Of a stretch of 36,685 bases of DNA, positions 2,763 to 30,776 are shown one piece after another. The position numbers and the translations under genes are program-made. The stretch is from positions 1 through 36,685 of the IMG/VR virus record IMGVR_UViG_3300045974_000512; one strand, written 5' to 3'. The notes beneath the pieces were generated by a model that did not search any database, was not told where the DNA came from, and saw only the letters and a program-made list of their open reading frames with translations. Each line of letters begins with the position of its first letter. Position 1 is the first letter of the stretch. Origin of the DNA: a virus.

Positions 2763-3659
2763 ATGACATACGCATCCGGCTCCCGCGTCCAAATGGCCTA
2801 CATTCCCGAGGTCACGTTTGGCACCACGCCCGCCACTCCACAGATGGTCCTCATCCCAATGCAGTCCACGACCCTGGACTTCTCGAAGGACATCATTCAG
2901 GACCCGACCCTCGTCGCCGACCGCATGAAGCGCGAGGCCAAGCACGGCAACATCGCGACTGGTGGCAACATCGTGGTCACGCTCCAGCACGGCCAGTTTG
3001 ACGACCTGCTTGAAGCCGCTCTCTGCGGCACCTGGGCCACAAATACAATCAAGTCGGGCACCGTCACTCGCAGTTTCACTGTCGAGGAAGGTTTCCTGGA
3101 TGTAACCGAGTATCGTCGCTTCACTGGTGTCAAGGTCAACTCCCTCGAGTTGTCTCTCGCTCCCAACCAAGTTGTCCAGGCAACCTTCGGTCTTATCGGC
3201 CAGGGCATGACGACTGCCATCATCCCGCTTGACTCGACGCCAACTGCCCTACAGGCCAAGGTAGGTCTCACCCACCTGGGTGGCACCATCACGGTGGGCG
3301 GCACCTCAGTCGTGGCTACCTCGCTCACTCTCTCGCTGCAGAATGGCTACACGGCCAACTACGGCATTGGGTCAGCAACTGCCCGTGACATCACCTACTC
3401 GGATGCGACCCTGACTGGCTCGGTCACCTTCTACTTCGAGGACCTGGTCCAATACAACCGCTTCGTGAATGAGACGACTGCAGCCATCGTGTGCTCCACG
3501 ACTGACGGCACCAACACCCTCACCTTCACCATTCCCAAGGCGAAGTTTAACGGTGGTCAACTGCCAGTCCCCAACTCCGGCGTGCTCTTCCTGACGATGC
3601 CTTTCGAGGCCTTCTACGACAGCGTCTCCGGCACCACCATCTCCATCACCCGCTCGTAA
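2763..3659 (+). CDS. Major tail tube protein
   Basis: The 298-residue protein starts at an ATG preceded by AAAGGAA. The N-terminus (SRVQMAYIPEVTFGTTPATPQM) and the conserved pattern of a long beta-rich body with GNIVVTLQHGQFDDLLEAAL are typical of siphovirus tail tube subunits, which polymerise around the tape measure. The second half (residues 160-298) repeats the domain-like pattern seen in the first (T..SLTLSLQNGY, then FEDLVQYNRFVNET), suggesting a duplicated tube fold or an added Ig-like domain. It has its own candidate promoter, which fits the high amount needed. The stop overlaps the next start as TAATG. Confidence 0.8.
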   Translation: MTYASGSRVQMAYIPEVTFGTTPATPQMVLIPMQSTTLDFSKDIIQDPTLVADRMKREAKHGNIATGGNIVVTLQHGQFDDLLEAALCGTWATNTIKSGTVTRSFTVEEGFLDVTEYRRFTGVKVNSLELSLAPNQVVQATFGLIGQGMTTAIIPLDSTPTALQAKVGLTHLGGTITVGGTSVVATSLTLSLQNGYTANYGIGSATARDITYSDATLTGSVTFYFEDLVQYNRFVNETTAAIVCSTTDGTNTLTFTIPKAKFNGGQLPVPNSGVLFLTMPFEAFYDSVSGTTISITRS

Positions 3660-25910: not shown

Positions 25911-26786
25911 TTACTTCTTCAGGAGGTTGGACCATTGACTGAGGTAGTCAGCGGGGTAGTTGACCATCATCGCACCCAACTCGTTAACGAAGGAAAGGTC
26001 CTTGCCGGGCACTCGGCTCCAGTTATCCCACAGCCAGGAGAGCAACTCTTCCTTCTGTGCTTGCTCGAGGGAGAAGAGGCTCATCTGCATGGTTACTGAA
26101 GCAAGCCAACCCCAATGCTCTTGGTCGTCAAGGTCGATGTGCCAGTTAGCGGCGCGGCGGGCTACTGCCGCCTCGTCTTGGTGCCGCTTGCTGTTAAGCA
26201 CGTCGGCTGATGTCTTGAGACGACGGTTGGAGGTGATGACAAACCGGACATTCGAGGTGGGGATGCGGAGGCCGACGATGTTGCGTGCACCTTCAAACTG
26301 GAAGTGCTGCATGGCCTCGGCGAGAAGTTGGTCTGCCGGGTTGGGGCTCATTGAGCGGCGGACGATGTCAGTAGAAACGTCCTTGTCCCAGGTGAAGGCA
26401 GGGTCGTCGTTGGTATCCATGGCTCCCTTCATGACGTTGAGAGCCGTCATGTCCATCAGGATGCTGTCGCAGTCGTCGACCCAAACAACCAGGGCCTCCT
26501 TGCTACCGGACCGGTTGTGGAGGTAGACAGCGAGAGCGAGGTTGCGAGCGAGAGCGGCCATCGAGGTGGCTCCCGAAACCTTGATGGCGCGAGCGGCGAC
26601 TTGCTTGATGGCCTGCTGCACTGTGAAGGACTTGCCGAGGCCGGCAGCACCAGAGATGTAGGTGTGACGGCTGGCTTCCACCTTCAGTTGCTTGATACCA
26701 AGTCCAACGTTGATGCGCTCTACCAGTTGGTTGTGCTTGGCACCGCCTTGGGCGATAAAGGTGCGTTGTTGTTGAGTGAAGGTCAT
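25911..26786 (-). CDS. AAA+ ATPase, probable replication protein
   Basis: The 291-residue protein has a clear P-loop ATPase core: Walker A GAAGLGKS (residues 46-53), Walker B VVWVDDCD (100-107) and a sensor-1-like FVITSN (182-187) followed by two arginines. The C-terminal third is helical with many tryptophans (WHIDLDDQEHWGWLASV, ELLSWLWDNWSR), like an AAA+ lid. Standalone AAA+ ATPases of this size in phages serve as helicase loaders or replication-initiation factors. With the polymerase-like gene at 29604-30776 it is one of only two replication-type genes I can see. It has its own promoter element and an AGGAG ribosome site. Confidence 0.75.
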   Translation of the reverse strand: MTFTQQQRTFIAQGGAKHNQLVERINVGLGIKQLKVEASRHTYISGAAGLGKSFTVQQAIKQVAARAIKVSGATSMAALARNLALAVYLHNRSGSKEALVVWVDDCDSILMDMTALNVMKGAMDTNDDPAFTWDKDVSTDIVRRSMSPNPADQLLAEAMQHFQFEGARNIVGLRIPTSNVRFVITSNRRLKTSADVLNSKRHQDEAAVARRAANWHIDLDDQEHWGWLASVTMQMSLFSLEQAQKEELLSWLWDNWSRVPGKDLSFVNELGAMMVNYPADYLSQWSNLLKK

Positions 26787-26862: not shown

Positions 26863-27342
26863 CTATATCTTGCCCAACTTGCGTGCATTGAAAAACTTGG
26901 CAAGAAGGGCGACTGACAGTTGGTGCCGCTCGCTGGTGGCCGGCCAGTTAATGCGAGAGCCTGACTGCTGCATGACGGGGTTGGCGTAGGCTCGCTCGAG
27001 CACATCTCGCTGCGGGGCAAAGAAAGCCTCCAGTTTCTTCCTGGCATTTGCTGAGTTGGTGGCCCCCATCTTGGCGCCAGCCTCCTTGTCCAACTTCCGG
27101 CCAGTTAGCGCGGCTGCCACGTCTGGCCTGGGCTTGCCGGTGAGAGCGAGTGACACTTTGCGCCGATGCTCGGCTGTGCGCACCTTGCCAAGTTGTGCCT
27201 GCGACATGCGCAAGATAGTCTCGGGGGTGTTGGTGCGGCCGGTGTTTGCCGCAACCCGTGCCTTGATGCCAGTCATCTTGACATCTTCTTCGGCGTCAAC
27301 TGGGGTGATGGAGGCGAGGAGGTCTTGGAGGGAGGTAGTCAT
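26863..27342 (-). CDS. NUMOD3-like repeat DNA-binding protein without nuclease domain
   Basis: The 159-residue protein contains at least three NUMOD3-like helices in a row: NTPETILRMSQAQLG (residues 38-52), RTAEHRRKVSLALTG (55-69) and a shorter RPDVAAALTGRK (72-83), with a possible fourth near KEAGAKMGATN. The family pattern is S/T-E-E-T-x-x-K-x-S-x-A-x-x-G. These modules usually follow a GIY-YIG or HNH nuclease, yet none is present here. The C-terminus is helical and basic (ERHQLSVALLAKFFNARKLG). It has its own promoter element and may act as a sequence-specific DNA-binding protein. Confidence 0.6.
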   Translation of the reverse strand: MTTSLQDLLASITPVDAEEDVKMTGIKARVAANTGRTNTPETILRMSQAQLGKVRTAEHRRKVSLALTGKPRPDVAAALTGRKLDKEAGAKMGATNSANARKKLEAFFAPQRDVLERAYANPVMQQSGSRINWPATSERHQLSVALLAKFFNARKLGKI

Positions 27343-28809: not shown

Positions 28810-29064
28810 CTACTCGTCACCGACTGTTACATCTGGCTCCAGAGAAGGAAAGTCATACCAGCCACGTGGCTTCTTCTGGTCGTCCCACTGGACATTGGGC
28901 ACGGAGACGGTGGGCGAGCCCGGTATCCCCTGGTCCCATTTCCGGTAGCCGACGACCGTGCCAGCAACAACTCGACGGGCCTTGCCAACCAGCCGACAAA
29001 CTCGAGTCCCAACCGGGTAGGTAGAGCGGAGGAGGGCGTTGTGGGCGAAGGTGTCGGTTATCAT
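28810..29064 (-). CDS. Small unrecognised beta-rich protein
   Basis: The 84-residue protein overlaps the stop of the upstream gene by four bases (ATGA). The sequence STYPVGTRVCRLVGKARRVV, AGTVVGYRKWDQGIPGSPTV and then VQWDDQKKPRGWYD reads like a small SH3-like or Tudor-like barrel, with an acidic end. I cannot name a function. It shares a transcript with the transglutaminase-fold gene. Confidence 0.6.
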   Translation of the reverse strand: MITDTFAHNALLRSTYPVGTRVCRLVGKARRVVAGTVVGYRKWDQGIPGSPTVSVPNVQWDDQKKPRGWYDFPSLEPDVTVGDE

Positions 29065-29459
29065 TGCAACTCGGGAGAAAAGGGGCCGTAGTGGCCATTC
29101 TCAAGTCCCAGGTCGATGGCCTGCATCTCGGTGTAGCGAGAAACCTTGGTGACCTGGCCGAGGTCGTAGTAGGACTTCTTGTCCATGACCCGACCAGTGA
29201 TGCTGTCCATCACCTCGGTCCCACTGGGTCCATCAACCTCCAGCCAGGCATGACTGCCACGGGCCTGCGGCTTCGAGAAGAAGCACTCGCCCTCGACCAG
29301 GTAGAGGTTGACACAGTCGTCGAGGGCGTGACAGGTGTAGAGCATGGTCTCGTAGGCGACGGCGTGACAGGTGCCAAGTCCTTGCTCGTCACGGTGACCA
29401 TGCCGTGAAATGGCTGCCGCCTGCTGGGCCTGCAGTGTCTTTAGAAGTTTCGCTTTCAT
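29061..29459 (-). CDS. Transglutaminase-fold / papain-like cysteine protein
   Basis: The start at 29459 (AAGGA eight bases upstream) lies after the promoter element; the longer frame to 29564 would begin upstream of it. The 132-residue product has a plausible Cys-His-Asp triad in the right order: Cys31 (GLGTCHAVAYETML), His70 (GSHAWLEVDG) and Asp85 (EVMDSITGR). That is the pattern of minimal transglutaminase-like cysteine hydrolases. The N-terminus is a basic helix (KAKLLKTLQAQQAAAI). As an early gene it may process or crosslink a host protein, or act as an amidase; the substrate is unknown. Confidence 0.55.
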   Translation of the reverse strand: MKAKLLKTLQAQQAAAISRHGHRDEQGLGTCHAVAYETMLYTCHALDDCVNLYLVEGECFFSKPQARGSHAWLEVDGPSGTEVMDSITGRVMDKKSYYDLGQVTKVSRYTEMQAIDLGLENGHYGPFSPELQ

Positions 29460-29493: not shown

Positions 29494-29562
29494 GTCAAAC
29501 CGGGACAGAAGTAAACAGGAGAAGTGTAACCTGTGCATTTCACCTGGTGATATTCTTGAGAC

Positions 29563-29614
29563 ACTTGTAATACGCTAGGGTATAGTATTGGAGTTAGGAG
29601 TTATCACTCTCCTT
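29563..29614. repeat. Direct repeat R1 (52 bp), at the 3' end of the polymerase-like gene
   Basis: This block matches 30397-30447 except for one substitution and one inserted base, in the same orientation. It is A/T-richer than its surroundings. It covers the last codons and stop of the polymerase-like gene and the start of the gap before the transglutaminase-fold gene. It holds two inverted repeats: AATAC with GTATT (11-base loop) and AGGAG with CTCCT (8-base loop). Confidence 0.9.
29568..29585 (+). promoter_or_regulatory. T7-promoter-like sequence in R1
   Basis: The plus-strand sequence TAATACGCTAGGGTATAG has the two outer blocks of the T7 RNA polymerase promoter, TAATACG and TATAG, at exactly the T7 spacing (six bases between), while the six inner bases differ. 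Transcription would run rightwards, antisense to the polymerase-like gene. The similarity may be chance. Confidence 0.35.
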
Positions 29615-30776
29615 CTACTTCCTTGATGATGACGGAGAAGCCGGTCTTTTGGTAGATGACTTCCTGTAGGTCCTGTGCATCCACCGGCCTTTGGGTTGAC
29701 CACCCGTCATGTATGAGGAAGTGCGCATTTGACCCGGCTTTTAGGTAGTCACGCACCACTACCAGCACCCGCCTCTCGAGGTCGAAGTAAACGCCCCACT
29801 TCCGCTTCGAGTTGAGCGCCATCTTTCTCATCTTGCCCGTCTTCTTGCTCATCACCTCTACTCGAGGTAGACCTGGCTCAATGGCGTCCCAGCAGGTCTT
29901 GATGTTTTCTCGCAACTCCGTGATGAGCGGGTCAAGTCGCAACCTCATCATCCGGTGCCAGTCCTGGTCGACCACGTGGTAGAGGGAGAAGTCCCGGTTG
30001 GCACCCAACTTGGCGCCACAGAAGAGGGCGTTGATGATAACCTTCGCCTGCTTTTCATCTATCTCGCCGACTTTCATGACGTGCTGGCGGAAGGTGACCC
30101 GGTCAGCCAAGTAGGACTGGATGGCAGGCAGCCACTCGTCCATAGGGTCGGGCTGGCGCTGGGCCCATTGATGGATGAGGGTGGGCGCACAGGCCTGGAT
30201 GTCATACGAGTAGGTCAAGCCGGCATCTCGAAGCACCTCGTCTCTGACGTCCGCCTTGACCCACTGGAGGGGGTGCCAAAGCCGGTCTGACTTCTCCTTG
30301 TAGTCGAAGTGCAGGCTGGCGAGGTCGGTCTGATACACCCGCTTCACCCAGGCGATGGTGACCTCTCGGTCAAAGGCCGCCCTGTCTTCCTCGGAAACTT
30401 GTAATACGCTAGGGTATAGTATTGTGTTAGGAGTTATCACTCTCCTTGTCTCCTCTTGGACGGGCTTTTTTGTTGATGTCCACCCCGAGTTGAGCAGAAT
30501 AGCCCTTATTTCGTCCATCCCGGCTTTAGACAAGAGCCACGTCTTCACCTTGCCCGTGTCCATGTTGTAGTGCTGGTCGGTGCAGATGAGCACTTTATCC
30601 CGCATCCACTTGCTCAGGTCATTCTGTTGCTGGCCGAATGCCTCCGGCTTGTCCATCCACGCTTTTGCTATTTCTCGCGGCTCGTTGAAACTCATCACCG
30701 CATTACAGAAGCCATACGCATGGCGCAGTCGAGATATCACTCGCGGGTCATTGAAGTTGGGGACATAAGTGGTCAT
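29604..30776 (-). CDS. Small palm-domain polymerase (superfamily A / TV-Pol-like)
   Basis: I start at ATG 30776, just after the promoter element, giving 390 residues; the open frame reaches 30917 but would overlap that promoter. Three polymerase motifs appear in order: motif A YDIQACAPTLIHQ with Asp192; motif B EKQAKVIINALFCGAKLG (Lys242, Lys245, Gly254), comparable to the O-helix of DNA polymerase I; motif C FLIHDGWST with His356-Asp357. The D-x(5)-P motif A with an HD motif C recalls the TV-Pol family of viral and transposon polymerase-primases related to superfamily A. At 390 residues it is much smaller than Pol I or T7 RNA polymerase and has no exonuclease domain. It may act as replicative polymerase, primase or RNA polymerase. 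Repeat R2 codes for residues about 110-127, and R1 covers its end. Confidence 0.6.
   Translation of the reverse strand: MTTYVPNFNDPRVISRLRHAYGFCNAVMSFNEPREIAKAWMDKPEAFGQQQNDLSKWMRDKVLICTDQHYNMDTGKVKTWLLSKAGMDEIRAILLNSGWTSTKKPVQEETRRVITPNTILYPSVLQVSEEDRAAFDREVTIAWVKRVYQTDLASLHFDYKEKSDRLWHPLQWVKADVRDEVLRDAGLTYSYDIQACAPTLIHQWAQRQPDPMDEWLPAIQSYLADRVTFRQHVMKVGEIDEKQAKVIINALFCGAKLGANRDFSLYHVVDQDWHRMMRLRLDPLITELRENIKTCWDAIEPGLPRVEVMSKKTGKMRKMALNSKRKWGVYFDLERRVLVVVRDYLKAGSNAHFLIHDGWSTQRPVDAQDLQEVIYQKTGFSVIIKEVEGE
30397..30447. repeat. Direct repeat R2 (51 bp), inside the polymerase-like gene
   Basis: The second copy of the repeat lies 834 bases from the first and is translated as part of the polymerase-like protein (RRVITPNTILYPSVLQV). 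The palm motifs A, B and C all lie between R1 and R2. The same two inverted repeats are present. Confidence 0.9.
30402..30419 (+). promoter_or_regulatory. T7-promoter-like sequence in R2
   Basis: This is identical to the sequence in R1: TAATACG, six bases, TATAG, on the plus strand. If active it would transcribe rightwards towards the plus-strand genes that begin at 30860, starting about 440 bases before them. Confidence 0.35.

Follow-up and report, generated by a model that had tools for sequence, protein, structure and literature searches.

Paired copies of a conserved DNA site inside and at the end of a TV-Pol-like polymerase gene in uncultured phages

The window analysed here is the whole 36,685-nt stretch of an IMG/VR virus record (IMGVR_UViG_3300045974_000512), and it is probably a complete genome, given the 127-bp terminal repeat on the contig. 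A polymerase gene is located on its minus strand, with one copy of a repeat (R2) inside the gene and the other (R1) across its end (Table 1). As claimed in the preliminary description, the copies proved to be nearly identical (96%, with one substitution and one 1-nt indel, 834 bp from start to start) and A/T-rich in G/C-rich surroundings, their GC contents being 0.38 (R1) and 0.37 (R2) versus 0.58 for the genome. R2 is read in frame within the ORF starting with the ATG at 30776, the stop codon (29604–29606) falls within R1, and motif A (YDIQACAPT), the fingers lysine K245 and motif C (IHDGW) of the palm are all situated between the copies. The two inverted repeats reported for each copy were also found, ATAC-N6-GTAT being the only one inside the part conserved in relatives and absent from some of these. 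Searching the window revealed no copies of the repeat other than R1 and R2, and the 21-nt core occurred exactly twice at three or fewer mismatches, compared with 0 in dinucleotide shuffles. Among 21 other genes of the phage, no 17-codon window had a worse codon usage than R2. A diversity-generating retroelement was rejected, since the R1/R2 differences had no adenine bias, and an approximate 12-nt duplication adjoining R2 was judged a purine-rich coincidence and not a target-site duplication. Elsewhere in the window, a gene at 26863–27342 contained a NUMOD3 motif and a homing-endonuclease-like match, and one at 25911–26786 encoded an AAA+ ATPase with 40% identity to that of the jumbo Burkholderia phages FLC6 and FLC8; apart from the latter gene, this is a 36-kb siphovirus-like genome.

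Table 1. Features of the polymerase locus in the window
Feature	Position	Strand	Description
Polymerase gene	29604..30776	-	390 aa, family-A / TV-Pol-like palm; homologues at 28-52% identity, AlphaFold2 model, Foldseek
N-terminal domain	30489..30776	-	aa 1-96; winged-helix-like element order in model; candidate DNA-binding domain
Linker	30393..30488	-	aa 97-128, contains R2; only low-confidence stretch of model
Palm/fingers domain	29607..30392	-	aa 129-390; D192, K245 and D357 invariant in 41 relatives
R2, internal site copy	30397..30447	-	51 nt; translated within polymerase linker; 96% identity to R1
R2 core	30396..30417	-	22 nt, ATACCCTAGCGTATTACAAGTT; top motif match genome-wide, 25.9 bits
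R1, downstream site copy	29563..29614	-	52 nt; overlaps polymerase stop codon
R1 core	29562..29583	-	22 nt, ATACCCTAGCGTATTACAAGTG; second-best motif match genome-wide, 22.5 bits
Next gene 3' of R1	29061..29458	-	ORF; promoter-like site ahead at 29515-29488

Searches of Pfam and PHROGs with the polymerase protein gave no family match, and a single-sequence AlphaFold model was unusable (pLDDT 36). With an alignment of 41 rows, AlphaFold2 yielded a model with a pLDDT of 92 and a pTM of 0.86, in which the only weak stretch within the chain was aa 101–130 (pLDDT 53–71), including the residues encoded by R2. The palm of the model matched the Klenow part of Pol I in Foldseek (E 1.5e-4) and, among viral models, proteins of uncultured phages, virophage replication proteins and the polymerase of Rheinheimera phage Barba. 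The N-terminal domain had no significant family match; it contains strands in the model and appears to be winged-helix-like. The aspartates D192 and D357 were invariant in the 41 sequences, as was R165 in a beta-hairpin modelled before the palm (strands 160–162 and 165–167). The RxxxK fingers motif was absent: K245 is invariant, but the position four residues before it is E in the window and K in the phage at locus L093, and an invariant arginine (R230) lies farther upstream.

These properties recall TV-Pol, a family that occurs in viruses as well as in mobile elements and has a minimal family-A-related palm lacking an exonuclease, a beta-hairpin arginine and two aspartates (Iyer, Abhiman and Aravind 2008, PMC2579912). 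The TV-Pol N-terminus is all-helical, in contrast to the winged-helix-like one predicted here, and neither a D5 helicase (in an unsystematic search) nor a resolvase partner was found. Since the RxxxK motif and the described gene links were not seen, the protein is termed TV-Pol-like and not a member of the family. It also resembles divPolA2 of barbaviruses in having a palm joined to an unrelated N-terminal domain with neither an exonuclease nor a recognisable thumb, but divPolA2 accompanies a regular PolB in larger phages (PMC11348598). No paired sites are described for TV-Pol, or mentioned for divPolA2, in the sections of these two papers that were consulted.

Searching IMG/VR with the window's own 27-mer gave no match, and single-protein searches recovered no relatives of the polymerase. 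The entry point was a chance-level plasmid match (E 0.4), from which two Polaromonas plasmids with homologues of the palm were reached; an alignment including these homologues revealed the L093 phage (52% identity), and further alignments raised the number to 51 IMG/VR loci. About 50 relatives, 25–52% identical in the polymerase, were thus obtained from uncultured phages, and after near-duplicates and cut loci had been dropped, the comparison covered 39 loci, one of them the window. Both Polaromonas plasmids carrying the homologue, pW9NP1 and pH8NP1, are small, and in pW9NP1 it is located directly 5′ of the RepA gene, which is followed by 23-nt iterons. At one locus (L106, 378–1568) the polymerase reading frame shifts inside the palm, representing a sequencing error, a frameshift or a split gene.

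The paired architecture is conserved: one copy in the linker and another at the stop codon or immediately beyond it were present in the window and in 16 further non-redundant loci. Pairs were detected independently of any motif by matching each gene against the 1.5 kb beyond its stop codon, matches with an E-value of 2e-6 or better being regarded as significant, and in the significant pairs the internal copy lay at nt 244–412 of the gene. The upstream control gave a single match (L103), which was the same element sitting before the gene. That R2 might be an insertion missing from relatives proved wrong, since relatives carry the same element there. At L099 and L097 a repeat pair occupied the same two places with a sequence different from that of the window. 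Most copies had in common the core ATACCCTA(G/T)TGTATTACAAGTC, which was kept across phages with 28–52% protein identity. A strict pattern of this core had 29 matches in 24 records, nearly all beside the polymerase gene, compared with 0 for the reversed pattern. In genome-wide scoring with a weight matrix the pair ranked at the top in most near-complete relatives, with weak core matches at L099 and L093 and, in the window, a third-best match of 11.2 bits against those of R2 and R1 in Table 1; these scores are not independent evidence because the matrix was trained on these same copies, and independent support for the site comes from the in-genome repeats and the strict pattern search.

Both copies exceeded the null in 19 of the 39 loci, the weak downstream matches being less sure because the null applied to a single strand over 210 nt. 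The downstream copy occurred alone at L105, L121 and L146 (weakly at L128, L130, L133 and L137) and the internal copy alone at L104 and L125 (weakly at L093), whereas no copy was found at L098, L132, L134 and L144. L103 had copies ahead of the gene and near its end, and tandem extra downstream copies were present at L097 and L115. On the tree, the trait was scattered over deep branches, requiring at least eight changes for the internal copy and at least ten for the downstream copy. Likeness was higher within than between phages, both in the core (92% versus 64% match) and in the 28 nt before it (75% versus 52%), which might be due to active copying, to gene conversion between the copies or to a binder that is specific to each phage and has evolved along with its sites.

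The internal cores were read in two frames, 16 of the 19 sharing one and those of L109, L097 and L099 using another (IPYCITS), while the downstream cores were read in several frames or in none. Downstream copies were inverted at L112/L113 and, near the polymerase gene, at L122/L124 (weakly at L131/L145), and L123 had one direct and one inverted. Differing frames, non-coding copies and tolerance of inversion indicate that the site is constrained as DNA and not as protein. Retention of the element for an encoded peptide, YPSVLQV, could draw on the majority frame and on the YPSV-type tails that end the L103, L106 and L116 proteins, but it is extremely unlikely in view of the three cores in the other frame, the non-coding state of R1 in the window and of many other copies, and the rare codons of R2. 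An action as RNA, with a protein binding the element or the polymerase mRNA being processed at it, also seems very improbable. Most copies are in sense orientation, the unstructured sequence ahead of the core is G-poor (0.11 and 0.09 versus 0.20 for the gene) and R1 lies near the next ribosome site, all of which would suit it; against this stand the inverted copies, the absence of an Rfam match, and folding in which neither copy clearly exceeded shuffles (z-scores of 0.0 and -1.7 for the coding strand).

The preliminary description offered cassette insertion, a recombination site pair, possibly acting as an on/off switch, or duplication of a regulatory site. The last fits best, as the pair occupies identical positions in relatives and its core has been kept from phage to phage. 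A cassette insertion is unlikely because the fusion of N-terminal and palm domains occurs in relatives with or without the internal copy. Recombination at the sites, deleting the palm as a switch or exchanging palm cassettes between phages, has in its favour that the direct repeats are near-identical and the copies are held alike within each phage, and a deletion in the window would be predicted to yield a 122-aa N-terminal protein or, for a crossover on the right-hand side of the indel, an in-frame fusion of 293 aa with the next gene. We nevertheless consider it quite improbable. Neither deletion form was seen among relatives, no deleted or inverted form was found among about 50 of them, and no serine or tyrosine recombinase (PF00239, PF00589) was matched in the window and 20 relatives; where the downstream copy is inverted, palm deletion by recombination would be impossible. 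Single-copy relatives, which the preliminary description had proposed to look for, do exist, but none that carried the site was palm-less; an N-terminal gene lacking the palm was found only at L148, where the 8 kb examined contained no site copy. Distances of the N-terminal and palm domains were correlated (Spearman 0.57) with no clear outliers, giving no sign of frequent palm swapping between phages. The L148 phage itself, which has no palm, contains the N-terminal domain alone twice (L148 4001–5400; record G027:10736–11014 and 3241–3501); a gene for a large serine recombinase comes after one of the two, and a tyrosine integrase is encoded as well.

Transcription control is the main rival to a replication role: the sites may be operators or one-strand promoters recognised by a factor from the phage or its host, R1 controlling the next gene and R2 damping or timing transcription of the polymerase gene. 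R1-type copies often lie directly ahead of the next gene's ribosome site, a TATAAT-like sequence follows the core on the complement in several phages, and the arrangement at L122, where two copies have in common 192 nt of sequence including the leader and ribosome site of a following gene, favours this possibility. We regard it as rather unlikely, since the orientation is mostly wrong for driving the next gene, the -35/-10 spacing is not fixed, the site is normally missing upstream of the polymerase gene, and the probable minus-strand promoters of the window belong to a different series (TATAATAGACA). The two places with the site and about 190 nt of similar leader, near L122 5069 and around L149 1666 (record G016:4665), are 18 kb apart with a different gene after each. 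A likeness to a T7-type promoter (TAATAC..CACTA..GGG on the complement) was resemblance only, the spacing being off. The other series, TGTCTATTATA on the plus strand, had six copies (window 25337, 25862, 26809, 28779, 29483 and 30778), several directly before minus-strand genes, and is probably an early promoter series of the phage; because the ATG at 30776 is almost on one of them, the polymerase mRNA would be nearly leaderless.

The site occurs one to three times in a genome, accompanies the polymerase gene, sits at its end and within a disordered linker, and is constrained at the DNA level. The best reading of this is a protein-bound site pair with a part in replication start; we put it forward tentatively, as quite possible. 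On this view a single cis-acting DNA site, belonging to the polymerase gene and retained across a large uncharacterised phage group, would be present twice, as R1 and R2. One protein, most likely the polymerase via its N-terminal domain, or else a phage partner, may bind both copies, and the sites would probably show where phage DNA replication is to begin, or help it to begin, as an origin-type element partly embedded in a replication gene, the internal copy being placed where only a flexible linker gets encoded. The site does lie in and beside a replication gene, as expected of an origin inside an initiator gene. Classical origins have clusters of iterons, whereas each copy in the window is AT-rich and has one core; the tandem downstream copies at L097 and L115 resemble iterons. 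GC skew showed no mark at the site pair and was rejected as origin evidence, since it tracks gene strand. Against a replication role, some relatives have one copy and in others none was found, and at L122 the second copy, 18 kb off, has a promoter-like position before another gene. More speculatively, and in our opinion unlikely, the gene and its sites might form a self-contained unit of initiator, polymerase and origin, perhaps self-priming, in which starting at or copying the sites would keep the copies alike within a phage while they drift between phages.

Known origins offer partial parallels to such a replication site. The lambda ori is likewise a cis-acting replication site with repeats inside a coding sequence, that of gene O, but its 19-bp iterons are clustered in one place with no second copy after the gene, and O is not a polymerase (PMC5043065). 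In SPP1, oriL, which lies within gene 38, and oriR are both targets of gp38 (PMC6316719), giving two similar AT-rich sites per genome with one inside the gene of their binder, a role that is only presumed for the polymerase here; however, oriL and oriR are about 13 kb apart and bracket no domain, and gp38 is not a polymerase. The site pair described here may thus represent a further case of a cis element housed in a replication gene by way of a flexible linker, predicting that the linker sequence of the polymerase is set by the need of the DNA and not by that of the protein, and now that two candidate binding sites of about 50 bp and a candidate DNA-binding domain are defined, the start of replication in these phages would be directly testable.
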